A program made the translations under genes and the position numbers. From contig QWII01000038.1 in assembly GCA_021405325.1 (NCBI GenBank), positions 1-64,000 of the forward strand: a stretch of DNA of 64,000 bases, written 5' to 3'. How positions within the stretch are numbered: the first letter of the stretch is position 1; each line of letters starts with the position of its first letter. Shown here piece by piece: positions 9,408 to 31,312 of this stretch. The notes beneath the pieces were generated by a model that did no database searches, had not been told where the DNA came from, and was given only the letters and a program-made list of their open reading frames with translations. The DNA is from Caldilinea sp. CFX5 (GTDB lineage: Bacteria; Chloroflexota; Anaerolineae; Caldilineales; Caldilineaceae).

Positions 9408-9469
9408 GATAGACAGGTAGACAGGTAGACAGGTAGACAAGACCTGTCTACCTGTCTACCTATCTACCT
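9408..9469. terminator. Self-complementary simple-repeat hairpin after dnaA
   Basis: Right after the dnaA stop, tandem AGACAGGT units (AGGTAGAC register) face their own complement CCTGTCTA, giving a stem of roughly 25 bp with a few-nt loop. It probably ends the dnaA transcript. It is built from a 7-8-nt repeat rather than a unique sequence. Confidence 0.6.
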
Positions 9470-10756: not shown

Positions 10757-11112
10757 TTCATTGGTTAGTGCGGTGGTTGAGCTTGTCGAAACCACCGCAC
10801 TAACCAACCAACTGTTGATAAGCCAAATTGAGTGTGCCGATCTGTTCCAAAGCAACGTAAGATGGTATCACAAGCGCACTGATGTCACGGCGACCTGGCC
10901 GTGACGCGCGAACGCGGCGTAGCGCTTGGTGTGGATAAGCAGGGTCGCGCCTTTGGCTGTACATGGGCTTGTGCAGCCGGCTGTCATACCATGATGGCAA
11001 GGCAAACTCGCTTATGATGCGCTGTGGCTTCGGCTACAGCGTTTTTGTTTATATTTGTCCGATCTTTTGCGAGCGATAAGATGGAATTACCACTGACGAG
11101 GAACTTGAGCTT
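10757..11112. other. Intergenic region recA-rny
   Basis: 356 bp without a gene. It contains the invariant-loop hairpin (10761-10807), a TGTTGATAA at 10813-10821 and a perfect DnaA-box-like TGTGGATAA at 10930-10938, both possibly chance. A weak long-range pairing joins GATGGTAT near 10860 and ATACCATGATGG near 10986. No promoter is called with confidence. Confidence 0.6.
10761..10807. repeat. Invariant-loop hairpin, copy 1 (after recA)
   Basis: An 18-bp perfect stem, TTGGTTAGTGCGGTGGTT (10761-10778), with its complement at 10790-10807. The loop is GAGCTTGTCGA (10779-10789). It probably also terminates recA. Confidence 0.85.
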
Positions 11113-12681
11113 ATGGGCAACATGATTCTAACCATTGTGCTAATCATTGTCTTTGCCGTGATTAGCGCAGGGGCTGCCGCCTATTTTGCCTTCAAACGCG
11201 GTGAGCAAGCCGGCGTGACGACCGAAAAAGAACGCCAGGTGGCTGTGCGGCAGAGTGCAGAAGACCAAGCGGAGCATATTATCCGCGAAGCGGAAACTGA
11301 AGTAAAACAGATGCGGCTGGCGCTTAAAGAGGAGGAAGTCCAGCAGCGCAATGAGATGGAAGCGGAGCTGACCAAGCGCCGCAAAGAGTTGGAACGCATT
11401 GAAGAACGCTTACAAAATCGCCTGGATAATGTCGAACGGCGGTTGGAACAGATCGAAACGCGTGAACGCAAATTGAACCAACGCGAAAGCAAGTTGGATC
11501 AACGGGCCGCCAAAATCACCACGATGGAGGAAGAACGGCTGGCCGAATTACAGCGCATTGCCAACATGTCACAGGACGAGGCGCGCCAGGTCTTATTAGC
11601 CGAAGTAGAGAAGGGGACGCGCCAGGAGATGGCGCGTTTGATTCGCGAAGTGGAAGCCGAGACCCATGACGAAGCCGATCGCCGGGCGCGCAATATCATC
11701 ACAATGGCGATTGAACGGCTGGCCTCGGAGCATATCTCTGAATACACCGTTAGCAGCGTCGATCTCCCTTCGGATGAGATGAAGGGCCGCATCATCGGGC
11801 GCCAGGGCCGTAACATTCGGGCGATTGAGCAAGCCTTGGGCGTTGATCTCATCGTTGATGATACGCCGGAAGCGATTATCATCAGCAGCTTCGACCCAAT
11901 TCGCCGCGAAGTGGCGCGCATGACGCTGAGTAAACTGATCACCGACGGGCGCATTCACCCGGCGCGCATTGAAAAAGAGGTGGAGAAAGCCCAACAAGAG
12001 ATCGAACGGGTGATCATGGAAGCGGGCGAGTACGCCATGATCGAAACGGGCGTCCAAGGGTTGCATCGTGAGGTGCAACGCATTCTAGGGCGGCTCAAAT
12101 TCCGCACCAGCTATGGTCAGAACCAGTTATTCCATGCCATTGAAACTTCCCACTTGGCCGGCATGATTGCGCAGGAATTGCACGCCAATGTCAACATCGC
12201 CCGCTTAGGTGGCCTGCTCCATGACCTGGGCAAAGCGGTCAGCCACGAGATCGAAGGCCCCCATGCCATTGTCGGCGCCGAAATTGCCAAACGCTATGGC
12301 GTGAATGAGACGGTGGTCAACTGTATCGCCAGCCATCATGGCGAGGTGGAGCCGCAATCGATTGAAGCGGTCATCGTGGCCGCCGCCGATGCCATTAGCG
12401 GCGCTCGCCCCGGCGCCCGCCGTGAAAGCCTGGAGACCTACATCAAACGGGTGACGGCGCTGGAAGAGATCGGCAACAGCTTCCCCGGCGTCAGCCAGAC
12501 CTATGCCATCCAGGCCGGTCGTGAAGTGCGTGTGCTGGTGCGCCCGGAGGATGTGGATGACCTGACAGCGATTTCGATCAGCAAAGAGATTGCCAAGAAG
12601 ATCGAGGACAATCTGCAATACCCCGGCCAGATTCGCGTCACTGTCATCCGCGAGACGCGGGCCACCGAGTACGCCAAGTAG
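11113..12681 (+). CDS. rny: Ribonuclease Y
   Basis: Membrane-anchored endoribonuclease that starts bulk mRNA decay. Order of parts: one N-terminal membrane helix (residues 3-25), a long charged coiled coil (about 35-200), a KH RNA-binding domain with IIGRQGRNIRAIE (about 232), and an HD domain with HAIETSH and LLHDLGKAV (about 337-375) followed by a conserved C-terminal region. The 522 residues match the family. The rny-spoVS order downstream is conserved in several Gram-positive-type lineages. It is followed by a strong intrinsic terminator. Confidence 0.97.
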   Translation: MGNMILTIVLIIVFAVISAGAAAYFAFKRGEQAGVTTEKERQVAVRQSAEDQAEHIIREAETEVKQMRLALKEEEVQQRNEMEAELTKRRKELERIEERLQNRLDNVERRLEQIETRERKLNQRESKLDQRAAKITTMEEERLAELQRIANMSQDEARQVLLAEVEKGTRQEMARLIREVEAETHDEADRRARNIITMAIERLASEHISEYTVSSVDLPSDEMKGRIIGRQGRNIRAIEQALGVDLIVDDTPEAIIISSFDPIRREVARMTLSKLITDGRIHPARIEKEVEKAQQEIERVIMEAGEYAMIETGVQGLHREVQRILGRLKFRTSYGQNQLFHAIETSHLAGMIAQELHANVNIARLGGLLHDLGKAVSHEIEGPHAIVGAEIAKRYGVNETVVNCIASHHGEVEPQSIEAVIVAAADAISGARPGARRESLETYIKRVTALEEIGNSFPGVSQTYAIQAGREVRVLVRPEDVDDLTAISISKEIAKKIEDNLQYPGQIRVTVIRETRATEYAK

Positions 12682-12709
12682 AGCGACGCAAAAACCCGGC
12701 AAGCTTTAT

Positions 12710-12768
12710 TTGTCATTCTGAAAGAATCTACCGCCTGGATGAGGGTAGAGATTCTTTCAGAATGACAA
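12710..12768. repeat. Perfect 20-bp stem hairpin after rny
   Basis: TTGTCATTCTGAAAGAATCT (12710-12729) and its complement (12749-12768) around a ~19-nt loop that itself partly pairs (TACC/GGGTA). The TCATTCTGA...AAGAATC theme resembles intergenic palindromes seen in many bacterial genomes; that comparison is from memory. Confidence 0.75.
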
Positions 12769-12776
12769 GCACCCTC

Positions 12777-12834
12777 TCTTATTGTCAGCAAAACTGCTGA
12801 ACTTTTCTTATTGTCAGCAAAACTGCTGAACTTT
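12777..12834. repeat. Perfect 2 x 29-bp tandem duplication
   Basis: Positions 12777-12805 and 12806-12834 are identical. Each unit contains a small hairpin TCAGCA-AAAC-TGCTGA. No open frame spans it. Confidence 0.85.
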
Positions 12835-12888
12835 GCGCTTAAGCGCAGTTCTATGACAAATGTCCTGCTTTACCTTTCCCACCTATGC

Positions 12889-12920
12889 AAACGCCGCTGC
12901 GAACAACCGCAGCGGCGTTT
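12889..12920 (+). terminator. Intrinsic terminator of rny
   Basis: AAACGCCGCTGCG (12889-12901) pairs with CGCAGCGGCGTTT (12908-12920) across a 6-nt loop, followed by a T-rich tail. This is a classic rho-independent terminator. Confidence 0.85.
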
Positions 12921-13213
12921 TTGTGTTCTTACCACAATCTTACTATAATAGGGCCGAATAGTGTAAACGAACTGTAAGGTCAAAAATAAAATAAATCGAT
13001 TATAATTTGCATAGCAAAGACAGTTTGCCAAAAAGCAATAAGAACAAAATTGTAATTGTGTTGTAAGCGATTTGCAAGTATCTTCTTGCTACAACAAGCG
13101 TCCTAAGTAGTAAGCAAAATGTCTTGCAAATCTTGAACTAGCGTATCTTTTCCTTGCCTGGTGCGTCGAAAGATACAAAGACCGGTCTTTAAGCTAGTAG
13201 CAGTTCCAGACTT

Positions 13214-13249
13214 AGTATCAAACGTAGTATCAAACGTAGTATCAAACGT
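13214..13249 (+). repeat. Three direct 12-bp repeats upstream of spoVS
   Basis: AGTATCAAACGT occurs three times head to tail (13214, 13226, 13238), with a partial fourth AGTAT, 150-185 nt before spoVS. The spacing is close to one helical turn, as in iterated protein-binding sites. Confidence 0.7.
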
Positions 13250-13398
13250 AGTATACGGGCGTTGTCACTAAAGAACCCTTGTTTGTTCTCTAGATGCACC
13301 AGTTGTCAACAGCACAGGATTTCCGTGGTGGCAGTTGCAGTATATCGACTCGTACCAAGCTGATATACATCGACCTAGTTTCTTAAGGAGGCAATTTC

Positions 13399-13734
13399 AT
13401 GGCTGAGCTAATTCGAGTCTCTGCCCAATCACGTTCGACGGCTGTCGCGGGCGCGATTGCAGGTGTGATGCGTGAACAAGAGCATGCAGAAATGCAAGCC
13501 ATTGGCGCAAGTGCCGTCAATCAGGCCATTAAGGCTGTTGCGATCGCGCGCGGCTATCTCGAACAGGATGGTATTGATCTGGTCATTGTACCGACCTTTA
13601 CCGAGGTAGATATTGAGGGCAATGAGCGCACCGCCGTGCGCATTGCGATCTATCGGCGCCCCCAGTCGTTAAAGAGCACCAACGGCTTTTTCAACGGGAA
13701 TGGCATTGCTACCGCCAGTCTGGTGATGGCCTAA
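13399..13734 (+). CDS. spoVS: SpoVS-family protein (Alba-like fold)
   Basis: Small, highly conserved nucleic-acid-binding-type protein of 111 residues. The SpoVS signature is clear: LIRVSAQSRS at the start, VAGAIAG, then IGASAVNQAIKAVAIARGYL and VPTFTEVDIEGNERTA. In Bacillus it is needed in late sporulation, but it is widespread in non-spore-formers, where its role is unknown. AAGGAGGC sits at ideal distance before the ATG, suggesting strong translation. The ~85 N-terminal residues match the family; the last ~20 are a divergent Gly/Asn-rich tail. Confidence 0.95.
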   Translation: MAELIRVSAQSRSTAVAGAIAGVMREQEHAEMQAIGASAVNQAIKAVAIARGYLEQDGIDLVIVPTFTEVDIEGNERTAVRIAIYRRPQSLKSTNGFFNGNGIATASLVMA

Positions 13735-13834
13735 CCGTTAGACCTGAGCGCCCTATCCCGTGTAACATCTCACCTGTAAGGGTTACAGGCTCCCAACTAC
13801 CCGCGATCCATTGCACGTACAACCAAATAGGAAA

Positions 13835-13889
13835 CCTACACAGTCTATTCCGGCCGGAGCTGTGATCTGACTGGAATAGACTGCGTAGG
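13835..13889. terminator. Bidirectional hairpin spoVS/ricT
   Basis: A 17-bp stem with one mismatch (13835-13851 and 13873-13889, core CAGTCTATTCC/GGAATAGACTG) lies between convergent genes. Confidence 0.6.
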
Positions 13890-13902
13890 TGAACCAACCG
13901 GA

Positions 13903-14889
13903 TCAGCGGCGGCGACCACGGCGACGGCGCCGCTTGCTCTGATCGGCCCCCTCTTCGGTCGCGTCCTCTGCCGGGGCTGCTTGTCGTTCGGCGCGCTGTT
14001 GACGCACCCGCGCATTGTCTTCTTCGGCGCCGGCGCGGCGTTTTACGGTACAGCCGCCACAGGTGCTGCAACCGCTGCCGCTGCTGCTTTTGCTGGCGAT
14101 CAATTCGCCCACGGCAAACTCGGCAATGGCGTTGCTTTCCAGCAAGACGGTTACCGTCTCCTTGAGTGGGTGCAGGTGGCGGACCCGACCGGCGCCTTGG
14201 GGTGTGATCACCTCAGCGCCAAGTTTCGGCATTTTGCGATTCTGTTCTTTGTATACTTCATCTTCGTAGGACAAACAACAGAGCAAACGCCCGCAGACGC
14301 CGCTGATCTCCTCTGGGTTGAGCGGCAACTGTTGATTCTTCGCCATACGAATACTGACCGGCGTAAACTCGCGCAACCAACTGGTGCAACAGAGCTGACG
14401 ACCACACTTGCCGACGCCATCGAGCAATTTGGCTTCGTCGCGCACACCAATCTGCCGCATCTCAATCCGCGTGCGGAAGATGCGTGCCAATTCACGCACC
14501 AATTGACGAAAATCAACCCGATTCTCCGATGAGAAGTAGACCAACAACCGTCCGCCGGTATAGTTGTAATCACAGCGGATGATCTTAATATCCAATTCGT
14601 GTTCACGCGCCTTGCTGCGACAGATCGCCAGCGCTTCTTGCTCTTTGCGCGTCCACACATCTTTCTGCACCAAATCCCAGGCCGAGGCGCGGCGCACCAC
14701 ATTTTTCATTTCCCCCACCACATCCCGTTGGTCAATGATGTGGGGCGCTTCGACAACCTGGGCAATCTCCGTCCCTTTGGCCGTCTCCACAATCACAAAA
14801 TCACCCCGGCCCAGATCCAGCAATTGGTTGGCGCCAAAATGGTAGACTTTGGTTACAGGATTAAATTGAATTCCAACAACCGTTGGCAT
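13903..14889 (-). CDS. ricT: PSP1-domain regulatory protein RicT (YaaT-like)
   Basis: The PSP1 (RicT) protein is a partner in the Fe-S-containing Ric complex, which in Bacillus modulates RNase Y processing. The PSP1 core spans about residues 1-270, with the family cysteines in VGKCGRQLCC and GVCGRLLCC. A basic tail ends SKRRRRRGRRR, after a Gly/Cys segment with two further Cys pairs (GCSTCGGC). The frame is open to 14973, but those 28 residues are encoded by the invariant-loop hairpin. MPTVVGIQF at 14889 matches the usual start and has GGAG upstream. holB precedes it, the conserved holB-yaaT order. RNase Y is encoded only 1.2 kb away. Confidence 0.92.
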   Translation of the reverse strand: MPTVVGIQFNPVTKVYHFGANQLLDLGRGDFVIVETAKGTEIAQVVEAPHIIDQRDVVGEMKNVVRRASAWDLVQKDVWTRKEQEALAICRSKAREHELDIKIIRCDYNYTGGRLLVYFSSENRVDFRQLVRELARIFRTRIEMRQIGVRDEAKLLDGVGKCGRQLCCTSWLREFTPVSIRMAKNQQLPLNPEEISGVCGRLLCCLSYEDEVYKEQNRKMPKLGAEVITPQGAGRVRHLHPLKETVTVLLESNAIAEFAVGELIASKSSSGSGCSTCGGCTVKRRAGAEEDNARVRQQRAERQAAPAEDATEEGADQSKRRRRRGRRR

Positions 14890-14911
14890 CAGGTAAATTA
14901 CTCCGTATTCT

Positions 14912-14978
14912 GGGTTGTGGGATGGTTCGTTCGTTGGTTGAGCTTGTCGAAACCAACGAACGAACCATCCCACAACCC
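14912..14978. repeat. Invariant-loop hairpin, copy 2 (holB/ricT junction)
   Basis: A perfect 28-bp stem (14912-14939 with 14951-14978) around the loop GAGCTTGTCGA (14940-14950). It begins 2 nt after the holB stop and spans the ricT leader, producing a false 28-codon extension of ricT. Confidence 0.88.
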
Positions 14979-14979
14979 C

Positions 14980-16056
14980 TCACTTTTGGGCAACAGTCGG
15001 CAATTGCAGTAGCAATACTTCGAGGGCCAACCGTGTATTAATCGTATGTTGTAAATAACGCTCAATCCGCTGCAAGGTGCGCAGATAGTCACGCACCGTT
15101 GTCTGCGGCAGCCGCTCGGCCTGTTGTTGCAGGACAGCCGCCTGGTCGATGTTACAACAGTGGTCACGGCAACCGGACTGCATCAACAGCACATCCCGCC
15201 ACCACGTTGTCCACAGATCGATCATCGCAAAAAGATGGTGACTGGTAAAGGTGGCGGCGCTTTTTTCGGCAAAGAGCAGGCGATCAACCGGGTCGGCGGC
15301 AGTCAATTGCCACAACTGTTGCAACTGCGCCAGCCGCTGTTCCCCCTGGTCACGCGCTTTGGTCTGATCGACCGCCCAGCCCAGACGACCGCGCGCCAGC
15401 CGGCCCAACAAGGCTGCTTCCTCGGCGCCCATCTGCCATTGCGCTTGCAAGGCGGTGACAATCGTTTCCGTCGCCAGCGGGCGCAACTCCAACACCTGGC
15501 AGCGACTCACAATCGTGGGCAACAGCTCATTGCGATCCAGCGCCGTCAGGCAAAAGAGCGCATGAGCCGGCGGCTCTTCCAAGGTCTTGAGCAGCTTGTT
15601 AGCAAAGCTGTCATTCGCCATCTGCATATCCAGAATCAGAAAGACTTTGTGCTGCCCTTCCATTGGCCGCAACGCCACATCATGGATGATCTCCGCCGCT
15701 TGTTCAACGCGCAACGCGCCGCCCCGTCGATCAACGGCCCCCTCTTTTGTCACCGGCTGAATGATCCGTAGATCAGGATGGTTGCCCCGCGCCAGCAAAT
15801 TACACGCGCGACAGCGACCACACGGGCGTTGTTGTGAATTGGTGCAGAGCACCGCTTGGGCAAAAAGCTGCGCCAGGGTGCGTTTACCCACCTGTTGTGG
15901 GCCAAAGAGCAGATAGGCGTGACGCAACGTAGTAGCGCCGCCGACCTTACCCGGCGGGGTTGGTTGTACAAGTTTTTGTAAAAATTGTACGGCCGCCGTA
16001 TGGCCATAAAGCGGCCAGGAAGCAGTTGGCTGCGCCGTCGCGGGCTGATCCTTCAT
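14980..16056 (-). CDS. holB: DNA polymerase III delta-prime subunit
   Basis: Clamp-loader subunit that helps load the sliding clamp at the replication fork. The N-terminal AAA+ fold has a zinc cluster, CTNSQQRPCGRCRAC (C-x8-C-x2-C-x2-C), followed by HPDLR. The P-loop is GPQQVGKR, with Arg where a Ser/Thr normally follows the Lys, so ATP binding may be lost, as in several delta-prime proteins. The SRC-type sensor (VSRCQVLELRPL) is present. At 358 residues it is typical. It is co-oriented with ricT and divergent from the solute-binding protein gene. Confidence 0.9.
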   Translation of the reverse strand: MKDQPATAQPTASWPLYGHTAAVQFLQKLVQPTPPGKVGGATTLRHAYLLFGPQQVGKRTLAQLFAQAVLCTNSQQRPCGRCRACNLLARGNHPDLRIIQPVTKEGAVDRRGGALRVEQAAEIIHDVALRPMEGQHKVFLILDMQMANDSFANKLLKTLEEPPAHALFCLTALDRNELLPTIVSRCQVLELRPLATETIVTALQAQWQMGAEEAALLGRLARGRLGWAVDQTKARDQGEQRLAQLQQLWQLTAADPVDRLLFAEKSAATFTSHHLFAMIDLWTTWWRDVLLMQSGCRDHCCNIDQAAVLQQQAERLPQTTVRDYLRTLQRIERYLQHTINTRLALEVLLLQLPTVAQK

Positions 16057-16095
16057 TGGGTCATTATAACATAGATGAAAATGGCAATCAAACGT

Positions 16096-16111
16096 GGTAT
16101 AATCAACAGTA
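16096..16111 (+). promoter_or_regulatory. Extended -10 promoter, possibly leaderless
   Basis: TGGTATAAT (TG at 16096 to -10 hexamer TATAAT at 16098-16103) is a perfect extended -10. The next in-frame ATG is at 16111, only 7 nt after the hexamer, so transcription would begin at or near the start codon. Confidence 0.55.
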
Positions 16112-17439
16112 TGATAAACGATACCTTTGCTACCCTCAATAAGCTGCGCGCCCGCGCTGCCGTCTACGGGCTGCTCTGGCTATGTTGTACCATTGGCCTG
16201 GGCGTTGTTAGTTGCCGCGCCGATAGCGCACAGCCGGTACTGCCGCCAATGGCGACACCTGATGCCGCTACAACATCTGTGCAACCGCGCCTCGAACAGA
16301 CTGTACCGGCTGCCACCGAACAAAATCGGCAGTTGGTCATTTGGGTTCCGGAATTTTTTCAGCCGCCGGATCAACCGCCGCCGGCGCTGCTCCAAACGGT
16401 CTATGACCAATTCCGGCACAACCATCCAGAGGTGCATTTGGATATTCAGCTTAAAGCGGAAAGCGGCGAGGCGAGTCTTTATGCCTATTTGCGTAATGCC
16501 CAGAGTATGGCGCCGACCATTCTCCCCGATGTGGTGTTGCTTGATACTGTTCAACTATGGCAAGCCGTCGAACTGGGCTTAATTCAACCCGTTCAATGGG
16601 ACGCCCTCCATCATACCAATGATTTTTTTCAATTTGCCCGTACCGCCGCCAGCTATCAAGGTCAAATGATCGGCATTCCTTATGCTGCGGATCTCATTCA
16701 TCTCGTCTATCATACGAATCAGATCACCCAATTACCAACGACCTGGGATACCTTGCTCACCACCGGCGGCCCTTATTGGTTTGCCGCCGGCAAACACGAT
16801 TCCCCCAATGAGTCGCTGCTGCTGCAATATGTGGGCGCCGGCGGCCAACTCTTTGAAAATGGCGCTGTTAGTAACCCGGATGCCCTGACTGCGCTCTTTG
16901 CCTTTCTCCTCGAAGCAAAGACGGCTGGCGTTTTGCCCGACGAGATCTTAGAATTCAAAAACACCACTGATACCTGGTCGATCTTTGCCGGTCAGCAGAC
17001 CGGTTTTGCCGATGTGTCCGCACACTGGGTGTTGGCGCAACAAGATGTGGTGCCCGACCTCGGCTTTGCCCAGATTCCAACCATCAATGGCGCGGCTGTC
17101 ACCATCGCCCATACCTGGGCTTTCGCCTTGGTGACGCCTGTGCCGGAACAGCAACAATTGGCCCTGGAGTTGATCGATCAATTGCTGGAACCGACCGTCC
17201 ACAGCGCCTGGAGCCGCGCCACCAAGCAATTGCCGACTCAGATGGGCGTCTACGCCACCTGGCTGGATTCTTCGCCTTACTATGAATTCCTCCAACGCCA
17301 ACTCGATGTCGCCATTGCCCTGCCCAATGGCCCCCAGTTTGCCGATTTCGCCCGTCGTCTACAACAAGCGCAAGAGGCCATACTGCTTAGTCAATTGAGC
17401 GTTGAGGACGCTGTGCAATTTGTCCAAACCGCGCCATAA
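16111..17439 (+). CDS. ABC-type extracellular solute-binding lipoprotein
   Basis: Family 1 (sugar-type) periplasmic binding protein. A lipoprotein signal ends at the lipobox GVVSC (Cys35 from the ATG at 16111), followed by a P/T-rich spacer. The mature domain shows family-1 strands LVIWVPEF, YDQFRHNHPEV and DVVLLDT, the GIPYAADLIHLVYH segment and a C-terminal lobe. The frame also opens at ATG 16075, which lies upstream of the extended -10; 16111 gives a normal-length signal peptide. No permease or ATPase genes are nearby, so it is an orphan binding protein. The ligand is unknown; oligosaccharide is a family-based guess. Confidence 0.85.
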   Translation: MINDTFATLNKLRARAAVYGLLWLCCTIGLGVVSCRADSAQPVLPPMATPDAATTSVQPRLEQTVPAATEQNRQLVIWVPEFFQPPDQPPPALLQTVYDQFRHNHPEVHLDIQLKAESGEASLYAYLRNAQSMAPTILPDVVLLDTVQLWQAVELGLIQPVQWDALHHTNDFFQFARTAASYQGQMIGIPYAADLIHLVYHTNQITQLPTTWDTLLTTGGPYWFAAGKHDSPNESLLLQYVGAGGQLFENGAVSNPDALTALFAFLLEAKTAGVLPDEILEFKNTTDTWSIFAGQQTGFADVSAHWVLAQQDVVPDLGFAQIPTINGAAVTIAHTWAFALVTPVPEQQQLALELIDQLLEPTVHSAWSRATKQLPTQMGVYATWLDSSPYYEFLQRQLDVAIALPNGPQFADFARRLQQAQEAILLSQLSVEDAVQFVQTAP

Positions 17440-17444
17440 AGCAG

Positions 17445-18305
17445 CTACTTGCTCCCTGCTACCACTAGCTTCTCAAGTGCGATAGCAGCGCCGTCATCTT
17501 CAATCGTGGGTGCAATCCAGTCGGCGATGGCTTTGAGGCCGGGGGACGCGTTACCCATCGCGACACCATAGCCGGCTGCTTGCAAGAGGGGGATGTCATT
17601 GTCATTGTCGCCAACGGCGAGGACGCGTTGCGGGTCGATATGGAGCATCCTGCAGAGTTGACGTAATGCTTGCCCCTTGTTGACCCCTTGCGCCATGCCT
17701 TCAACCAGGCGCGGGTGACTGCGCGTGATATAGAGCGTCTCACCAAAGCGCGCGGCCAACGGGGCCAAGACATCCGGGGCGGAGAGGGGGTCGTTGTCGC
17801 TCAGAAACTTAAGCGGCGCCCGTGCGCCCGGTTGTGTGAGGAGCCTCTGAAAGTGCGGATAGAGCGTGCGCGGTGTGCCAAAGATGTGGTCATGAAAACC
17901 CGCGAGCGTCGGATCAGGGGCCGGTCGATTTTGGTAGAGATGGGTATGGCCCGCGTCATCGTTGATGTAGAGTGTAGTCACAACCTGGGCGTTATCCAAC
18001 CAGGCGGCCACGTCGGCGGCAACCGCCAGCGGCATGGTCACTTCGGCATACATGCGGCCGCTCTGCGGATCACCGATGACGGCGCCGTGAGCCGTGATTA
18101 CCGGATAGGTTAAGTTGAGATAAGCGCCGGTCGTGCGTACATAATCCAGGGTGCGCCCGGTGGCGACAGTCAACGGGATGCCGGCGGCTTGCACCGCCCC
18201 AATTGCGGCGCGGACACGGGGCGTCGCCACACCGGCATGAAACAGATCCTGCACCGTACCATCCAGATCCAGAACGACCAAATCAAACAACGGGTGCTTT
18301 GCCAT
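17445..18305 (-). CDS. HAD-superfamily (Cof-type) phosphatase
   Basis: A 286-residue Cof-like HAD hydrolase. Motif I is DLDGTV (nucleophile Asp13), motif II is VATGRT, the C2-type cap lies in the middle, Lys-containing motif III is KGQALRQL, and motif IV is VGDNDNDIPLL with the family-typical AVGDNDND sequence. Such enzymes dephosphorylate sugar phosphates, flavin or nucleotide intermediates; the substrate is not predictable. It converges with the solute-binding protein gene (5 nt apart). The upstream boundary is an invariant-loop hairpin. Confidence 0.9.
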   Translation of the reverse strand: MAKHPLFDLVVLDLDGTVQDLFHAGVATPRVRAAIGAVQAAGIPLTVATGRTLDYVRTTGAYLNLTYPVITAHGAVIGDPQSGRMYAEVTMPLAVAADVAAWLDNAQVVTTLYINDDAGHTHLYQNRPAPDPTLAGFHDHIFGTPRTLYPHFQRLLTQPGARAPLKFLSDNDPLSAPDVLAPLAARFGETLYITRSHPRLVEGMAQGVNKGQALRQLCRMLHIDPQRVLAVGDNDNDIPLLQAAGYGVAMGNASPGLKAIADWIAPTIEDDGAAIALEKLVVAGSK

Positions 18306-18342
18306 GAATTCTCTTTCGCTTACGGTTTTCCTGGCCGATACG

Positions 18343-18407
18343 TGCTTCGTGCTGCATATTACGTGACCTGAGCTTGTCGAAGGTCACGTAATATGCAGCA
18401 CGAAGCA
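18343..18407. repeat. Invariant-loop hairpin, copy 3
   Basis: A perfect 27-bp stem (18343-18369 with 18381-18407) around the loop GAGCTTGTCGA. The stem sequence is unrelated to the other copies. It lies between prmC and the HAD gene. Confidence 0.88.
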
Positions 18408-18434
18408 TAAAAGGCTCAATAACTTTGCCGGGTT

Positions 18435-19517: not shown

Positions 19518-19903
19518 AAGGACCTCCTTGTCCTAATTCATCCGGCCGCATCGTGATACGGCCGCGGGCTATGGCGCAGTTTGCTGACCAGCCTGATAGC
19601 AAGTGCGGATCACGATTCAGCCGGATGATAACGGCATCGCTGACGAGCCGATGCAATTGGTTGCCATGTGTGAGGAGATGAATCAACATTGTTGTTCGCC
19701 ATCGACAGCGTCGGCGATGGGATCTGTATGGATAACCGTAGTATAGCTATACTATCCAAAAATGTATGATCATTTGCTTACACATTGATAACACTTGGCC
19801 AACAACTTCGTTGCGCTTCCCTGACGCTTTGCCGACCGGCGCGCAAACAGGCGGCTGTTCGCCCCTTCGCGAAAGCGCTCCGGTCTACTTGTACAGCGGT
19901 GGG
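19518..19903. other. 386-bp spacer between prfA and prmC
   Basis: No supported gene. It includes a 16-bp perfect palindrome TAGTATAGCTATACTA (19739-19754) in an AT-rich stretch, a plausible operator or promoter site for prmC, and the prmC ribosome-binding site at 19521-19528. Nothing else is recognised. Confidence 0.5.
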
Positions 19904-20986: not shown

Positions 20987-20991
20987 AAAAA

Positions 20992-21543
20992 TTATTCAGT
21001 AAAAATAGGAAGATGGCCTAAAGCAACAACATCAGCCCAGTCAGTTGGACTGCCTTCGGTGAAGACTGCCATTTCGCCAACCAACGTGGCGTTGGCTTCG
21101 GCAACGAGACTCTTTAAGCCCCGCAGAGTGCTGCCGGTACTGATCACATCATCAATAATCACCACTTGCTTCTTGTGAATGAGAGGAAGGTCTTTGCCGT
21201 CAATATAGAGCGTCTGCGGTTTGCCGGTGGTAATGCTCACCACTTCGGCTGCCAGACAGTTGACCATATAGGGTTTACGTACCTTGCGCGCCACCACATA
21301 GGGCAAACTGCTGCGCACAGAAAGCGCATGGGCCAGCGGAACCGCCTTCACTTCCGGCACAAGCAACACTTCGGCATTCATGGGTATCTGCGCTGCCAGG
21401 AGAGACGCCGCCGTTTCAACCACCGCCGTATCACCCAACATGTTAAATATAGCAATTTTTACCCCAGGCGCAACCTCAAAGATTGGCAAAGCGCGCGTCA
21501 AGTCCCCGATCTGTACGGTGTGGACGCGACCGTCATAGCTCAT
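20992..21543 (-). CDS. Adenine/orotate-type phosphoribosyltransferase
   Basis: Type I phosphoribosyltransferase of 183 residues. The PRPP-binding loop is [13 protein letters not shown] (about 131-143), and APRT-like [15 protein letters not shown] is upstream. The sequence resembles adenine phosphoribosyltransferase-like proteins rather than a canonical apt, so the base is uncertain. The open frame begins with TTG at 21546, but AGGAGG is correctly spaced for ATG at 21543. It heads a run with prfA. The divergent neighbour is the Zn-binding lipoprotein gene. Confidence 0.85.
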
Positions 21544-21725
21544 CAAATCCCTCCTGCTCGTGCTGGCGCATTATGAGCGCATAATGACACAAAATTCACT
21601 CACAGATTGTGAGTATATCACAATCATCGGCGTTCTTCATAAAAGAAAGCGGCAGAAGAAAAGGCGCTGCGCTGTTACCCCCGCCGTTTGACAAGTGTGC
21701 AGTAAAGATGATACGCTAGTGTAAT

Positions 21726-21740
21726 TGAGAACTATTCTCA
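21726..21740. promoter_or_regulatory. Candidate Zur/Fur-type operator
   Basis: TGAGAACTATTCTCA has palindromic outer hexamers TGAGAA/TTCTCA with a 3-nt centre, a Fur-family-like layout. It lies 83 nt before the zinc-binding lipoprotein gene in an AT-rich promoter region. The regulator assignment is inferred from shape and target. Confidence 0.5.
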
Positions 21741-21822
21741 TTTAATTTTCGATTGCCCACACGACAATTGCGGTAGCTGCTGGGGTGCGCCTGGCCGTTA
21801 CCAACATCAACCATAGGAGAGA

Positions 21823-22950
21823 ATGCTGATGACGCTATTTGTTGACCGCCGCCGTTTTCGCCAATCTTATGCCGCCCTGTTGATCCTGATTTTGCTGTTG
21901 GCCGGTTGTACCGCCGCGCCCCCAACCACTGCCGGCAACAACGAAGAAGCTGCACCCACCGAAGAGGCCCACAGTGAAGAAGGTCATAGTGAAGAAGGCC
22001 ACAGTGAAGAAGCTCACAGTGAAGAGGCGCATCAAGGTGAGGAAGGCCACGGTACGGCTGAGGTTTTGCCGCCGCTCGCGGCTGTTGCGTTGGCTGCGGG
22101 CGAAAAATTGCATGTTGTGGCCACGACCAACCTGGTTGCGGATGTGGTAGCCCAGGTCGGCGGGGATCGGATTACTCTGCACACATTGATGGGACCAGGG
22201 GTGGATCCTCACAGCTATAGCACGACGCCCCAAGATTTGCGCACGCTGGAAGAAGCGCAGGTTGTCTTTATCAATGGTCTACATCTCGAAGAGGCGCTGG
22301 CCGACCTGCTGGGTGGCTTGACCGCGCCGGTTGTGCCGGTCAACGCCGGGATCACCCCACGCGCTATAAGCGAAGAACATAGTGCTGAACACAGCAGCGC
22401 AGGGGACGAACATCACCACGAAGGGGACGATCCGCACACCTGGCAACGGGTGGCGAATGTCAAGCTTTGGGTGGAAAACATTCGTGAGAGCCTGCGCCAG
22501 CTTGATCCGGCCAACGCTGAAGCCTATCACGCCGCCGCTGCCGCCTACCTGGCCGAATTAGATGCGCTGGATGCCGAAATTCGCGCCAAGATCGAAACCA
22601 TCCCGGCCGAGCGCCGCAAATTGGTCACCGACCATGAGACCTTTGGCTATTTTGCCGATGAGTATGGCTTTACCATCGTCGGCGCGCTCATCCCTTCGCT
22701 CAGTACAGCGGCGGAACCCTCGGCGCAAGCCTTAGCCCAGCTCCAGGATCAACTGGCTGCAGAAGGGGTCAAGGCGATCTTTGTCGGCACCACAGTCAAC
22801 CCCCGGCTGGCTGAACAAATGGCGCAAGATCTGGGGATTCAGGTGGTCAGCCTCTACAGCGACTCCTTGAGCGCCCCCGATGGGCCTGCAGCGACCTATC
22901 TGGACTTTATGCGGTATAACGTCAACGCCATGGTCACGGCGTTGCAATGA
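21823..22950 (+). CDS. Zinc/manganese ABC transporter substrate-binding lipoprotein (ZnuA-like)
   Basis: Cluster A-I metal-binding protein of 375 residues that captures Zn2+ (or Mn2+) outside the membrane. The lipobox is LLLAGC. A His/Glu-rich tandem repeat follows (HSEEG / HSEEA, five units), and a second His-rich loop EHHHEGDDPH lies mid-protein; such loops are typical of zinc rather than manganese binders. Ligand regions are DPHSYS, DPHTW, VTDHETFGYFADEYG and the C-terminal YSDSL. AGGAG precedes two possible ATGs (21823, 21829). No permease or ATPase gene is adjacent. The stop codon overlaps the left end of a palindromic element. Confidence 0.9.
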   Translation: MLMTLFVDRRRFRQSYAALLILILLLAGCTAAPPTTAGNNEEAAPTEEAHSEEGHSEEGHSEEAHSEEAHQGEEGHGTAEVLPPLAAVALAAGEKLHVVATTNLVADVVAQVGGDRITLHTLMGPGVDPHSYSTTPQDLRTLEEAQVVFINGLHLEEALADLLGGLTAPVVPVNAGITPRAISEEHSAEHSSAGDEHHHEGDDPHTWQRVANVKLWVENIRESLRQLDPANAEAYHAAAAAYLAELDALDAEIRAKIETIPAERRKLVTDHETFGYFADEYGFTIVGALIPSLSTAAEPSAQALAQLQDQLAAEGVKAIFVGTTVNPRLAEQMAQDLGIQVVSLYSDSLSAPDGPAATYLDFMRYNVNAMVTALQ

Positions 22951-23214
22951 CACTACAACGGATGAGGGCGGGAACGGATATTATTTCGGTGAATAACGCT
23001 ACAACGGATGAGGACGGAAACGGATATTACTGGTGTGTCGAACGCTTATAAGCACAAGGTTCACCCACGAAAGCAGCATCTATTTTGATTAGCTGTAACT
23101 ACTAAGCCCGCTCCTAGCCGGTCACGGACCGGCTAGGAGCGGGCTTAGTAGTTACGATTAGCTTTCATTGAGCAGCCGCACCATCGGTTCCCGCCTTCAT
23201 CCGTTGTAGTGTCA
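22948..23214. repeat. TIR element A (267 bp) overlapping the znuA-like stop
   Basis: The left terminal repeat at 22948-22979 (begins TGACACTACAACGGATGA) and the inverted right copy at 23183-23214 match at 30 of 32 positions. The left end is partly duplicated about 40 bp further in. A second palindrome (23095-23155) is nested inside. The initial TGA is the stop codon of the zinc lipoprotein gene. No transposase frame is present, so it would be non-autonomous. Confidence 0.8.
23087..23163. repeat. Palindrome family P2, copy 1, with 8-bp flanking repeats
   Basis: A perfect 29-bp stem (23095-23123 with 23127-23155, starts GTAACTACTAAGCCCGCTCC, ends AGCCGGTC) with a 3-nt centre. It is flanked exactly by GATTAGCT on both sides (23087-23094, 23156-23163), as expected of a target-site duplication. 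Confidence 0.85.
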
Positions 23215-23227
23215 TTCTGCTGTCGTG

Positions 23228-24400
23228 TTACTCTAGCGCCCCTACATCCTGCAACATTGTCAGCGTGCCTTGCAGATCACTCAGGTTGCTCAACTCAATC
23301 TCCGGTGTGACAATCTCACTCAGTGGCTTGAGCATGGGGTTGATCTCGATTTCGGCGCTGGTCAACGGGTATTCATTGGTTTGGGTGGCAAAGTATTGTT
23401 GCGCCTCGGTCGAGAGCAAGAACTCGACAAATTGTTGGGCAGCTTCCTGGTTGGCGCCGGTTTGCAAAATACCGACCCCGGCTACATTGACCATGGCGCC
23501 GACATCACCGGCGGGGAAGTAGTAGTTGCGCGCCGGGAACTCTTCGCCCTGCTCCTTCAGGAATTGATAGAGGTAGTAGTGGTTGACCAGACCGACGGCA
23601 ATCTCGCCCGCGCCCACAGCCGTGACAATGGCGTTGTTGTTGGGGTAGACATGGGTCTCGTTGGCGACCATGCCTTCGAGCCACGCCTGCGCCGCCTCTT
23701 CCCCGGCCAGCCCACGCATGGCCGTGACAAAGGATTGGAAGCTGCCATTGCTGGGCGCCCAACCAACCCGTCCCCGCCATGCTTCGCCGGTTAGATCAAA
23801 GACGCTGGCCGGCAGATCGGCTTCGCTCACCAAATCCGTGTTGTAGACCAACACACGGGCGCGGCCGCTAATGCCCACCCACAGATTTTCCGGGCTGCGG
23901 AACCGTGGCTCGACCTGTTCGGTCAATGCTGTGGGCAGCTCCACAAAGCGTCCTTCTTGGGCCAACGCCCCCAGTGCGCCGGCATCCTGGGCAAAGAAGA
24001 GGTCGGCAGGTGAGTTGTCACCCTCTTCCAGAATCGTCGCCGCCATTTCAGCCGTGTCGCCATAGCGCACCTGGACATCAATGCCCGATTGTTCCTTAAA
24101 TTGTTCGATCAACGGGCCGACCAGATTCTCATTGCGGCCCGAATAAATGGTCAATTGCGCCGTGCCGGTCGCGTTTGCGCTCGCACCGGTATCCGTCGTT
24201 GGCGCCGGATTGGAAACCACCGGTTGGCAGGCCGCGACCAGGATGGCTACCACCAGCAATCCTGCCGCCCAACGCGCCCAAAGCGGCGGCGCCAGGCGCA
24301 GCGTTTTGCCGCTTTGGGCCAGGTGGATGATGACCAACAGAACCAGACCGACGGCGAAAAGGCCAATCGCCAGCGCCATTTGCAACAGTTCCATAAACAT
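23228..24400 (-). CDS. Iron(III)-type ABC transporter substrate-binding lipoprotein
   Basis: FbpA/FutA-like family protein binding ferric iron (or another oxyanion-coordinated metal). The mature domain begins LTIYSGRNENLVGP; family strands ADLFFAQDAGALGAL and VGLVNHYYLYQFL contain the paired tyrosines of the iron site. The frame is open to 24493, but ATG 24400 with AAGGA upstream gives a membrane-start protein. Unusually, a complete extra membrane helix (about residues 5-28) precedes the helix carrying the lipobox LVAAC (Cys58). Transporter subunits are absent from the window. Confidence 0.85.
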   Translation of the reverse strand: MFMELLQMALAIGLFAVGLVLLVIIHLAQSGKTLRLAPPLWARWAAGLLVVAILVAACQPVVSNPAPTTDTGASANATGTAQLTIYSGRNENLVGPLIEQFKEQSGIDVQVRYGDTAEMAATILEEGDNSPADLFFAQDAGALGALAQEGRFVELPTALTEQVEPRFRSPENLWVGISGRARVLVYNTDLVSEADLPASVFDLTGEAWRGRVGWAPSNGSFQSFVTAMRGLAGEEAAQAWLEGMVANETHVYPNNNAIVTAVGAGEIAVGLVNHYYLYQFLKEQGEEFPARNYYFPAGDVGAMVNVAGVGILQTGANQEAAQQFVEFLLSTEAQQYFATQTNEYPLTSAEIEINPMLKPLSEIVTPEIELSNLSDLQGTLTMLQDVGALE

Positions 24401-24726
24401 GCTTTTTGTTATCCTTCTCTGTAGTAAGCCAAAGTAGTAAGCCAAAGATGTTGTGGACAACATCAAATTATCCATACATGATGGATGAATCATAGTATTA
24501 CATAGATTTACGGGAAATCAAGAGGGAAGTGCAGCCCAATTTGGGGTTTGCCGGTATGGTTGCCATAAATCTACAAGCTAAGTGGGCTAAATCGTACAGT
24601 TAATCAAGGTTAACGCTGACCATGACGACGGGTAGACAGTTGCATTCTGCTGGCGTACAGGTTACAATAGCGGCATTCGATGATGCCACCCAATGCCAAT
24701 CATTCAGCAGTGACAGAGGAGAAGCC
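24401..24726. other. 326-bp divergent intergenic region
   Basis: Holds the promoter region of the iron-binding protein gene (minus) and the amidohydrolase promoter (24640-24668, plus). It is AT-rich between 24470 and 24600. No gene is supported. Confidence 0.5.
24640..24668 (+). promoter_or_regulatory. Sigma-70-type promoter of the amidohydrolase
   Basis: TTGCAT (24640-24645), a 17-nt spacer and TACAAT (24663-24668) lie 58 nt before the start codon. The hexamers and spacing are close to consensus. Confidence 0.6.
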
Positions 24727-25623
24727 ATGTTACCAATCATTGACACCCACCAACATCTGTGGGATTTGAGCAAGTTCAAGCTACCGTGGGTTGATGGCGC
24801 ACCGGCGATCAACCGTAGCTATCTGCAGAGCGACTATGCCGAAGCGACGGCGGGTCTCAATGTCGTCAAGGCCGTTTACATGGAAGTCGATGTTGATCCC
24901 AGCCAGCAAACGGCTGAGGCGCGCTATATCATCGACCAGTGTCAACGGGACGACACGCCTACGGTTGGCGCCGTCATCTCCGGTCGCCCGGCGTCAACGG
25001 ACTTTGCCGCTTACATCAACCAGTTCAAGGGCAATCGTTATATCAAAGGGGTGCGTCAGGTCTTGCATGTGCCGGAGACGCCCTCCGGTTACTGTCTCCA
25101 GCCGACTTTTGTCAAGAGCATCCAGTTACTGGGTGAATTGGGCATGAGCTTTGATCTCTGTTTGCGTCCCAGCGATTTGGGGGATGGCGTCAAGCTGGCC
25201 GATCGTTGCCCCAACACCCGTTTTGTGGTGGACCACTGTGGTAATGGCGACCCGAATATTATTGCCGCGTCGACCGATCTGCCGCGTGACCCGGCCAATC
25301 CCTTCTCGCACACCCGTCGCCAATGGCAGGATGATATGCAGGCATTGGCCAATCGCCCCAACGTGATCTGCAAAATCTCCGGCATCATCGCCCGCGTCAC
25401 GCCTGGTTGGAGCGCCGCCACCCTGGCGCCGACGGTGAATCACTGCCTGGATGTCTTCGGCCCTGATCGTGTCGTCTTTGGCGGCGACTGGCCGGTCTGC
25501 ACCCTGGGCGCTTCCTATCGCGAGTGGGCGACAGCGTTGCGTGAAATCATTGCCGAGCGCAGTGAACGGGAGCAGCGCAAGTTGTTGTATGACAATGCTG
25601 AACAGTTCTATCGATTGGCGTAG
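24727..25623 (+). CDS. Amidohydrolase 2 family protein (lactonase/decarboxylase type)
   Basis: A TIM-barrel metal-dependent hydrolase of 298 residues. The metal motif IDTHQHLWDL is at the N-terminus; the next His is in FVVDHCG, and a terminal Asp is in VFGGDWPVC. It most resembles L-fuconolactonase / 2-pyrone-4,6-dicarboxylate-lactonase-like proteins, so sugar-lactone hydrolysis is likely. The frame extends to 24622, but the promoter lies inside that extension and GAGGAGAAGCC precedes the ATG at 24727. The next gene is a Gfo/Idh/MocA dehydrogenase, fitting a sugar oxidation pair. Confidence 0.87.
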   Translation: MLPIIDTHQHLWDLSKFKLPWVDGAPAINRSYLQSDYAEATAGLNVVKAVYMEVDVDPSQQTAEARYIIDQCQRDDTPTVGAVISGRPASTDFAAYINQFKGNRYIKGVRQVLHVPETPSGYCLQPTFVKSIQLLGELGMSFDLCLRPSDLGDGVKLADRCPNTRFVVDHCGNGDPNIIAASTDLPRDPANPFSHTRRQWQDDMQALANRPNVICKISGIIARVTPGWSAATLAPTVNHCLDVFGPDRVVFGGDWPVCTLGASYREWATALREIIAERSEREQRKLLYDNAEQFYRLA

Positions 25624-25635
25624 AGCTAATCCAGC

Positions 25636-25693
25636 CGCGCTTAGCCGGTCCGTGACCGGCGCCCAGGCGCCGGTCACGGACCGGCTAAGCGCG
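25636..25693. repeat. Palindrome family P2, copy 2
   Basis: A perfect 28-bp stem (25636-25663 with 25666-25693) and a 2-nt centre. It contains AGCCGGTCCGTGACCGGC. It sits between the amidohydrolase and oxidoreductase genes. No direct repeats flank it. Confidence 0.85.
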
Positions 25694-25716
25694 AGTAGGT
25701 TCATTGGGAGTAAAGA

Positions 25717-26703
25717 TTGAGCGTTCAACCATTGCGCATTGGCACACTTGGGGCGGCGCGCATTACGCCGAACGCGCTGATTCGTCCGGTGCGTCAGGTG
25801 GAGGATGTAACCATAGCGGCGATGGCCGCACGTGAGCCGGCGAAGGCGCGCGCCTTTGCCGCCAAACAGGGCATTCCCCGGATTTATGATTCTTATGCTG
25901 CGCTCCTGGCCGATCCCACCATCGACGCCATCTACAACCCGCTCCCCAACCATCTTCATGCCGAATGGACGATCCGTGCCCTGGAAGCGGGCAAGCATGT
26001 TCTCTGTGAAAAGCCGCTGGCCGCCAACGCCGCTGAGGCAGAGCAGATGGCGCAGACGGCGGAACGCACCGGCCTGGTGTTGATGGAAGCCTTTCACACG
26101 ATCTATCACCCCCTGGCAACGCGGATGAAGGCGATCATCGACAGCGGCGAACTGGGCCGGATCCGGCATATTGATGTCCAGTTTTGCACCCTCATGTGGC
26201 GCTGGTGGGACATTCGCCTGCGCTATGAACTGGCCGGCGGCGCGACGATGGACTTGGGCTGTTACGCCATTCGTCTGCTTCGTTTCCTGGCCGGCGCCGA
26301 ACCGGAAGTGGTGCGCGCCCAGGCGCAGACCAGTTCACCCCAACTCGACCGCTGGATGAGCGCCGATCTGCGCTTTCCCGGCGACGTGACCGGTTCTTTC
26401 ACCTGCGCCTTTTGGTCAACCAAATTGATCCGGATCACCGCCCGCGTCACAGGCGAGGCTGGTGAAATGTCCGTTCTCAACCCCATTCTGCCCCAACTCT
26501 ACCACCGGCTCCAGGTGCGTACTGCCGCCGGCGCCCGCACCGAACGCCACCCCGGCGACAGTACCTACACTTATCAACTGCGCGCCTTTGTCGATGCAAT
26601 CCGGAGCAAGCGCCCCCTGTTGAGCGATGGGCGGGATGGGGTGGCCAATATGCGGGTCATTGACGCCGTTTATGAGAAAGCTGGTTTGAAGCGGCGCGGC
26701 TGA
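25717..26703 (+). CDS. Gfo/Idh/MocA-family oxidoreductase
   Basis: NAD(P)-dependent sugar or cyclitol dehydrogenase of 328 residues. The N-terminal Rossmann fold starts IGTLGAARI, and the family EKPLAANAAEAE motif (Lys of the catalytic triad) lies near residue 97. The C-terminal substrate domain contains the DLGCYAIRLLRFLAG motif with its catalytic-region Asp and Tyr. The start is TTG with GGGAG upstream. Being next to an amidohydrolase/lactonase, it may produce the lactone that enzyme opens; this is inference from order only. Confidence 0.9.
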   Translation: MSVQPLRIGTLGAARITPNALIRPVRQVEDVTIAAMAAREPAKARAFAAKQGIPRIYDSYAALLADPTIDAIYNPLPNHLHAEWTIRALEAGKHVLCEKPLAANAAEAEQMAQTAERTGLVLMEAFHTIYHPLATRMKAIIDSGELGRIRHIDVQFCTLMWRWWDIRLRYELAGGATMDLGCYAIRLLRFLAGAEPEVVRAQAQTSSPQLDRWMSADLRFPGDVTGSFTCAFWSTKLIRITARVTGEAGEMSVLNPILPQLYHRLQVRTAAGARTERHPGDSTYTYQLRAFVDAIRSKRPLLSDGRDGVANMRVIDAVYEKAGLKRRG

Positions 26704-26786
26704 GAGCGGGCAGCGTGAATGATTGGGCAGAAAATTACTACCCTGCCCCTCTTGCAATTTAGGTAGAACATTTATCTGCGGTACAA

Positions 26787-26822
26787 TACAACGGGTGGGC
26801 GACGGATCGTCCACCCGTTGTA
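26787..26822. promoter_or_regulatory. Palindrome before the site-2 protease gene
   Basis: TACAACGGGTGG (26787-26798) pairs perfectly with its complement (26811-26822). It lies 40 nt before the next start, so it could terminate the previous transcript or act as an operator. Confidence 0.5.
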
Positions 26823-26861
26823 CTGGCGTCCGGCGCTGCCGGTCTGGATTGTTGAGAATTT

Positions 26862-28088
26862 ATGGCTGACCCAACCACATCTGTTCATCATGCCTTTCGT
26901 GAATTGCCGGCGGAGGAAGCGCAAAAGCTGGCGAATGAAGTGCGCGCGCTGGTGGCGAATGATCTAGCGATTGAAGCCGTCCAGACAACCCGTGATCAAC
27001 GGCAGGGCGCCGTTGTCGTCGAAGGGCGGCTGTTGCGCCCCAGTCACCAAGCCTTTCCCCGTTGGTTAACCACGCTCAATGGCATGGGCTATACGCCCAT
27101 GTTGCGTCACCGCAGCGATGGCGGCCCCGATGATGTCAAGCTTCATGTCATGGCCGGCGTCGCCCCCAAAATCGCATCAAACGGCTGGATTAATTTAGTT
27201 CTATTCATTCTCACTTTGTTTAGCACGCTCTGGATCGGTTCTCTGTTTAGCAATACCCCGCCCGTAGCGGACACGCTGCCGCAAGCCTTAGTCGCGATTG
27301 TGGTGGGTGGGTGGCCGTTTGCGTTGACGCTTCTTGGCATTTTAACCGCCCATGAATTTGGTCATTACTTTGCGGCGCGCTACCACAAATTATCGGTGAC
27401 GCTGCCCTACTTTATCCCCTTTCCGCTGCCGCCCATCGGCACGTTGGGCGCCTTTATTCGCTTGAAAGAGCCGGTGCCGGATCGGCGCAAGCTCTTCGAT
27501 ATTGGCGTCGCCGGCCCGTTAGCCGGTTTTATCCTTGCCGTTCCGCTGCTCTTTTATGGCCTCAGCACCAGCCCTGTCATTGTGCCGCAGCCAACGCCCG
27601 GCGCCTGGGTGGAGGGCAACAGCATCCTCTATTACACGGCCAAACTAATCACCTTTGGCAAAGCGCTGCCCAACGCCGTCACCGGGGAAGATGTGCTGAT
27701 GAATCAGATCACCACCGCCGCCTGGATCGGGCTGCTGGTCACGGCGCTCAACCTGCTGCCGGTGGGGCAACTGGATGGCGGCCACACGGTCTTTGCCCTC
27801 TTTGGCGAAAAGGCGCGCTATTTTAACATGGTGACCGTTGGCGCAATGGCGCTCTTTGCCGTGGCGGGCCTGGACTTTGTACAAGCCTACTTGCCCTCCC
27901 TCAGCGCTGTCGGCTTTACCGGCTGGTTTGTTTGGCTGGCGCTGATCTTTTTCATGATCGGCCCCTACCACCCGCCGGCGCTGGACGATGTCACCCGTCT
28001 CGACAACCGCCGCCGCTGGATCGGCTACTTGATGATTCTGATCTTCATCTTGACCTTTGTGCCGGTGCCGTTGCGCTTTATGATGTAA
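26862..28088 (+). CDS. Site-2 protease family (M50) membrane protease
   Basis: A second intramembrane zinc protease, 408 residues, unlike the CBS-bearing one. A soluble N-terminal domain (about 1-105) precedes roughly seven membrane helices. [10 protein letters not shown] carries the zinc ligands, and [11 protein letters not shown] carries the third ligand Asp. [18 protein letters not shown] and the NxxPxxQLDGG spacing resemble the EGY/cyanobacterial S2P-like subgroup. No substrate is evident. It lies between the oxidoreductase and glyQS, separated from glyQS by an invariant-loop hairpin. Confidence 0.92.
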
Positions 28089-28093
28089 ATTAG

Positions 28094-28148
28094 GTGATTG
28101 GGTGATTCGGTGACTGAGCCTGTCGAAGTCACCGAATCACCCAATCAC
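28094..28148. repeat. Invariant-loop hairpin, copy 4
   Basis: A perfect 22-bp stem (28094-28115 with 28127-28148) around the loop GAGCCTGTCGA (28116-28126), right after the site-2 protease stop. Confidence 0.88.
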
Positions 28149-31264: not shown

Positions 31265-31312
31265 GATCAAAGATTACGCAGATTTAAAAATTAATCTGCG
31301 TAATCTTTGATC
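31265..31312. terminator. Bidirectional hairpin glyQS / CAP gene
   Basis: A 20-bp perfect stem GATCAAAGATTACGCAGATT (31265-31284) with its complement (31293-31312) and an AT-rich 8-nt loop lies between convergent genes. Confidence 0.7.

Follow-up and report, generated by a model that had tools for sequence, protein, structure and literature searches.

How can a loop stay the same from gene to gene while the stems beneath it differ and are perfectly paired? This question is raised by a 64-kb stretch of contig QWII01000038.1 (hereafter the window) from Caldilinea sp. CFX5, an uncultured member of the Chloroflexota, in which four single hairpins and one double hairpin, labelled h1-h5 here, carry the 11-nt core GAGCYTGTCGA. 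The account that we favour, and to which we give roughly even chances, is that this core is the apical loop of a unit resembling repetitive extragenic palindromes (REPs) that was multiplied in many Chloroflexota, that its arms are extended or repaired by template-switch (snap-back) synthesis, and that the resulting structures were possibly retained as 3'-end mRNA hairpins. The same loop would then stand on different perfect stems probably because fold-back DNA copying extends and repairs those stems. The observations behind this account are the hairpins and their position 3' of genes in the window, their dispersal, the covariation of their arms in relatives, and a single inverted loop and a single corrected arm, both in the same relative.

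Fixed-loop hairpins of the window

The exact core occurs six times in the window, and all six sites lie inside h1-h5, which comprise the four single hairpins and the double one (Table 1). Across 100 dinucleotide shuffles of the window, the expected number of sites was 0.03 on average with a maximum of 1, and none of the shuffled sites had a stem of at least 5 bp, which indicates that the paired cores exceed chance. Similarly, perfect hairpins of at least 12 bp with loops of 3-20 nt were absent from five window shuffles. When h1-h5 were folded as single-stranded DNA, their z-scores ranged from -8.6 to -14.4, with 0 of 200 shuffles equally stable for each hairpin. Taken together, we conclude that the fixed-loop hairpins are real and that chance is excluded. 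The coordinates, stem lengths and loops that a first-pass annotation of this sequence had assigned to the four single hairpins all proved correct, and the double version that it described is present. A search of the window against Rfam returned no match at the gathering threshold.

The same annotation had called the stems unrelated, which holds insofar as their sequences differ but overstates the case. Numbered outward from the loop, T1, G7, C8 and G16 are common to all five window arms, and GGTTnGTnCGkTGGTT is common to h1, h2 and the double h5. On their 5' side, the core arms consist of 80% G+T, and they contain short internal repeats beyond what composition provides (0/300 shuffles; three of the five arms singly at p<0.05). 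In addition, the double h5 is readable as a single fold-back that proceeds through the arm, the loop and the first seven far-arm bases, AACCAAC, and then copies back.

Each of h1-h5 sits 1-27 nt behind a stop codon, between codirectional genes, which agrees with the earlier placement of the hairpins at gene ends in all five cases. To quantify this position, we used gene calls that follow a crude longest-open-reading-frame rule, by which 8 of the 11 window hairpins of at least 14 bp outside called open reading frames (ORFs) lie within 30 nt 3' of a stop codon (control 0.184, P=1.3e-4). All four core hairpins that were counted are among those within 30 nt behind a stop; h2 was omitted because it overlaps the following gene as called by the longest-ORF rule. 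The same test found 14 of 23 hairpins behind stop codons in the relative G008 (P=0.0011; relatives are designated by G and their loci by L numbers) and no enrichment in G059 (5/20), G427 (5/22) or G388 (2/6). The loop is in sense orientation to the upstream gene in h1 and h4, in antisense orientation in h2 and h3, and in both orientations in the double h5. A site for a protein that binds the loop in RNA would be marked by a single orientation relative to transcription, and this mixture speaks against one such RNA-loop-binding protein. The loop-recognising factor proposed in the first-pass annotation is not borne out; a factor that acts on the loop at the DNA level is possible. Other long perfect hairpins with different arms and loops lie at most 30 nt from the stop codons of dnaA (9415-9461), RNase Y (12710-12768) and glyS (31265-31312), and a 14-bp palindrome, AAAGTGAGAGTTTT, is located at 7546-7576, 58 nt upstream of the dnaA ORF.

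Table 1. Hairpins of the window that carry the GAGCYTGTCGA core, with the gene that each follows (holB encodes DNA polymerase III delta', Pfam).
Feature	Position	Strand	Perfect stem	Loop or tip	Gene context
h1	10761-10807	+	18 bp	GAGCTTGTCGA at 10779-10789	3' of recA (Pfam); stop 10756, gap 4 nt
h2	14912-14978	+	28 bp	GAGCTTGTCGA at 14940-14950	3' of minus-strand holB; stop 14980, gap 1 nt
h3	18343-18407	+	27 bp	GAGCTTGTCGA at 18370-18380	3' of minus-strand prmC (Pfam); stop 18435, gap 27 nt
h4	28094-28148	+	22 bp	GAGCCTGTCGA at 28116-28126	between M50 peptidase gene (Pfam; stop 28088, gap 5 nt) and glyS
h5 (double)	32556-32629		35 bp (arms)	AACT	3' of minus-strand lactamase-B-fold gene (Pfam); stop 32636, gap 6 nt
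h5 core	32576-32586	-
h5 core	32599-32609	+

Arm covariation and copying footprints in relatives

We examined the arms in relatives using a covariance model, R1, which was trained on the four single window hairpins and matched at E<=1e-6 in 8 of 400 Chloroflexota genomes. In G427, G388, G370 and G059, the matches consist of long stems around the exact loop. The contigs of these four genomes were chosen because of their R1 matches, and of the 33 cores within them, the 12 picked by R1 were dropped and 21 were kept for a covariation test. The perfect stems of these unselected cores range from 0 to 22 bp. Stem positions 5-16 pair in 154 of 252 cells, as compared to 95.0 when the arms are re-dealt (0/1000 shuffles), whereas positions 17-22 pair in 39 of 126 cells versus 37.2, which is no excess. 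Adding back the 12 R1-picked cores left this picture unchanged. The pairing excess at positions 5-16 but not 17-22 suggests that the stem is a structure of approximately 16 bp whose sequence varies while its pairing is mostly kept.

The G388 family provided copies in which individual changes can be read. Our sample takes the 30 best among at least 40 copies that were scored, and strongly decayed copies are therefore missing from it. One of the 30 copies (L531) has TCGACAGGCTC as its loop while its arms keep their usual orientation, which indicates that the loop was inverted in place. In another (L524), the right arm has AAG in place of the family's TCC at stem positions 17-19. This AAG is fully complementary to the left arm, which is unchanged, and brings the perfect stem to 22 bp, as compared to the usual 16-18 bp. 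Template switching between the arms of inverted repeats has been described to yield both arm homogenisation and spacer inversion (PMC8604942; PMC8794818). The L531 inversion and the L524 correction are the products described for that process. Position 11 of the family exists in two states, G-C in 13 copies and T-A in 13, which may reflect one old event.

Fixed tips on varying stems are also found beyond GAGCYTGTCGA. The window contains further long perfect hairpins besides the five that had been annotated, including a second tip family, AGCCGGTC, which is single at 23095-23155 and 33465-33509 and double at 25636-25693 and 53635-53695; two members have the outer stretch GTAACTACTAAGC in common. 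Within the window, two tip families that are unrelated to each other thus occur in both single and double form. In relatives, the tip GGCGGC-NNN-GCCGCC occurs at 29 places in G059 (L305-L316) and 9 in G427 (L289-L296), and at 18 and 5 of these places, respectively, the perfect stem measures 18-25 bp overall. Its 5' arms differ and are rich in G and T (85% versus 51% for the contigs in G059; 74% versus 49% in G427), and the arms pair well above re-dealt arms, with some G059 copies being near-duplicates. This family makes clear that GAGCYTGTCGA is not the only fixed tip carried by perfect stems of differing sequence. Hairpins with the GGCGGC-NNN-GCCGCC tip are often preceded by TTTTTT and followed by AAAAAA.

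Dispersal of the core and edges of the unit

Across 19 relatives, GAGCYTGTCGA counts ranged from 0 to 91, with 4 sites for the reversed control sequence in the genome that has 91. At least one site is present in 385 of the 400 Chloroflexota genomes, mostly around control level, and at least 60 sites were found in 22 of 400, as tallied by eye from the count table, which indicates patchy amplification. The top counts relative to the reversed control were 650 versus 17, 483 versus 5, 320 versus 2, 234 versus 4 and 230 versus 1. A set of 559 loci (4.65 Mb), partly fetched for presence of the motif, contained 427 cores versus 12 for the control, of which 288 have stems of at least 4 bp, and a related loop, GAGCGNAGTCGA, occurred 12 times versus 2. 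The first-pass annotation had held that loops mostly lacking paired flanks would tell against a hairpin family. Unpaired cores are absent from the window (0/6), and no core in the G388 contigs examined has a stem below 5 bp (0/15), whereas many copies in weakly enriched relatives have stems of 0-3 bp. Some copies in relatives lie inside called ORFs. We also considered a DNA uptake signal as a conceivable role of the core; where enrichment is highest, nearly all cores are within hairpins. Tandem core hairpins recur every ~39 bp in G427 (L227, L241) and every ~160 bp in G080 (L224). G016 has several double core hairpins, among them a pair with cores 19 bp apart that resembles the one at 32556 in the window (L149, L160).

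The core is also found outside cellular Chloroflexota genomes, in line with the earlier statement that similar cores occur in other bacteria. At least 120 stretches of viral contigs contain the core flanked by two closing pairs per side, and among the 80 loci listed, the stems of 105 cores measure 0-9 bp; with longer fixed patterns (23 loci), stems were at most 7 bp. One Comamonas plasmid matches a Chloroflexota copy at all 32 of its 32 aligned bases, and another plasmid matches it less well. We conclude that the short-stem form is widespread and that long perfect stems are a Chloroflexota feature within the genomes sampled. Some viral-contig core hairpins lie inside ORFs by crude calls (L537, L541, L551, L556), which is reminiscent of palindromic elements within genes.

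The M50 peptidase of the window is at most 65% identical to its best relatives, which belong to the Caldilineaceae and their kin. In the relatives compared, the exact core is absent from the 140 nt 3' of the M50 stop codon; L117 has a core with one mismatch there, and some relatives carry other hairpins within that distance. Among the 80 loci around the relatives' M50 genes, the core occurs twice, on stems of 0 and 1 bp. For a 6-kb segment of G388 that carries three core hairpins, the orthologues examined came from G455, G454, G213, G382, G377 and G370, and the exact core was found in 0 of the 10 orthologous stretches fetched, which cover the first and third places, the second having no clean alignment. 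At the third place, DNA absent from the G370 orthologue ends directly behind the 8-nt right arm, and among the copies listed, seven share this end point, 8 nt past the loop. This sharp edge on the right side makes about 8 bp + 11 nt + 8 bp the likely extent of the unit, with one well-bounded case. In G388, a core hairpin (L283, 3300-3700) also lies within a larger repeat framed by inverted TAGAGCGATC / GATCGCTCTA, which is absent from the orthologous spacers of relatives.

Origin of the stems and relation to known repeats

Based on these findings, we propose that a short REP-like palindromic unit (~8+11+8) has spread through many Chloroflexota genomes, and that one strand could fold at the tip and prime snap-back synthesis, which would extend the palindrome into neighbouring DNA at individual places. 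The same synthesis may at times restore the arms to complementarity. The expected outcome is a perfect stem that differs from locus to locus beneath a constant tip, with an inverted loop or a doubled hairpin now and then. Where such hairpins come to lie directly 3' of stop codons, the transcripts would carry highly stable hairpins at 3' ends or between cistrons, and the elements would perhaps be kept for that.

Several observations weigh against this proposal. The 30 G388 copies show 39 one-sided, uncompensated changes at stem positions 1-16 versus 3 compensated ones, and they include a single inversion and a single multi-base correction, which indicates that decay is the prevailing fate of arms in this family and that correction, though present, happens less often. 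No stem at all accompanies four of the 21 unselected cores, stems of the viral-contig cores listed extend to 9 bp at most, and the analysis revealed no mobilising enzyme. Reading the double h5 as a fold-back depends on few bases, given that only the last three bases of AACCAAC exceed what pairing requires. Finally, the best M50 relatives are only 65% identical and the comparison included no close relative, and as a result, no copying event is readable in the window itself. That the window's own stems were built by snap-back synthesis is thus something we infer by carrying over the footprints of the distant relative G388. The copying mechanism that the first-pass annotation had suggested for regenerating stems gains support from the one inversion and one correction in G388 and none from the window, and the one-sided changes indicate that correction is not the rule even in that family.

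We regard template-switch synthesis around a dispersed unit as the best account and selection for a 3'-end hairpin as its main rival, which may act as well. If selection acted alone, the hairpins would be mRNA (or DNA) structures in which compensatory substitution keeps pairing as the stems drift while a partner holds the loop. The enrichment behind stop codons in the window and G008, the perfect stems in all five window cases, and the three compensated pairs that the G388 family has apart from position 11 fit such selection, whereas the absence of enrichment in G059, G427 and G388 does not. Furthermore, the L524 correction affects positions that are otherwise hardly paired in the G388 family, the L531 inversion leaves pairing unaltered, and loop orientation is mixed in the window; we consider selection alone rather unlikely. 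We are similarly tentative about a stricter form of copying, in which only the tip (loop and inner pairs) would be inherited and mobile and tip-triggered snap-back synthesis would build a new perfect stem from local DNA at each landing place; the GGCGGC-NNN-GCCGCC hairpins would be a parallel case.

It is more doubtful still that the core is a mobile insert that landed in the tips of pre-existing hairpins. Seven of the best R1 matches in Caldilineaceae-related genomes are long coreless hairpins with similar arm wording (L141, L142, L144-L148), as such insertion would predict, and one of them (L147, in G045) has 17 bases identical to the 3' arm of h4. However, these matches are a selected set, as the window arms served to train R1. 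None of the 400 Chloroflexota genomes, a set that does not include G045, contains the 17-base stretch of the h4 arm, and none of 46 genomes contains a 15-base stretch of h2. In addition, the loop-adjacent inner pairs common to several places suggest that the unit is more than the loop alone, and the sharp right edge in G388 lies 8 nt behind the loop, within DNA absent from G370. We also weighed whether h1-h5 are intrinsic transcription terminators that share a loop by coincidence, as their long stable hairpins immediately 3' of stop codons could suggest. A T-tract directly follows the stem, in gene direction, in none of the five, and terminator-like sites with T-tracts occur at a greater distance 3' of recA (11019-11042) and RNase Y (12889-12920), in a scan that covered loops of up to 8 nt and whose 24 sites hardly exceed the 21.4 found in shuffles. 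Because no T-tract lies behind any of h1-h5, we rejected intrinsic termination as their main role and find a coincidental sharing of the loop by terminators very improbable; h1-h5 are instead presumably 3'-end or intercistronic mRNA hairpins.

The family is a candidate REP in the general sense of a short extragenic palindrome dispersed in many copies per genome: it is palindromic, multi-copy and extragenic in the window, and multi-copy in relatives, but some copies in relatives are within called ORFs. The GTAG REPs and REPINs linked to RAYT (TnpA-REP) are described as small palindromes scattered through intergenic DNA, singly or in pairs and for the most part 3' of genes (PMC3733652; PMC6006769), with GTAG or GTGG located 0-2 nt from the hairpin foot by definition (PMC6006769). 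The window hairpins are alike in being short palindromes, single and paired, behind genes. However, GTAG or GTGG is present within 2 nt of 0 of 10 hairpin feet in the window, and unlike GTAG REPs, the window hairpins have an 11-nt loop on locus-specific stems of 18-28 bp. Among 14 motif-bearing relatives, the Y1 transposase domain PF01797 is absent at E 1e-5 in 5, and 28 Y1 transposase loci (88 kb) contain no core; a RAYT link is unsupported in these relatives. CGTC-tagged REPs are dispersed palindromes with no known dedicated transposase, with stems of 8-9 bp and loops of 4-5 nt (PMC3733652). The window family shares the dispersal and the lack of a known dedicated transposase with them, and differs in its longer stems and loop. 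Taken together, the hairpins are REP-like by kind yet lack the tested marks of both RAYT-type and CGTC REPs.

Template-switch (quasi-palindrome) correction has been described in those reports for single genes and RNAs (PMC8604942; PMC8794818). Its arm homogenisation and spacer inversion were each also seen here, once in 30 G388 copies, around a dispersed fixed-tip repeat and in a relative only. The double-hairpin elements of fungal mitochondria are dispersed hairpins whose stems vary. They belong to another genome and have other sequences, and we claim no kinship with them. Text searches of titles and abstract openings, with the subscription literature mostly outside their reach, returned no description of a GAGCYTGTCGA hairpin repeat. 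The core is widespread and had neither an Rfam match in the window search nor a published description that we found, and naming it may therefore help annotators. Repeat families of this kind offer many parallel copies per genome and make it possible to measure how fast arms are corrected, loops are inverted and copies decay. If our account is true, long perfect hairpins 3' of bacterial genes can result from the way in which DNA is copied around a dispersed tip, and such hairpins would then be available for control of mRNA ends, rather than being assembled pair by pair under selection.

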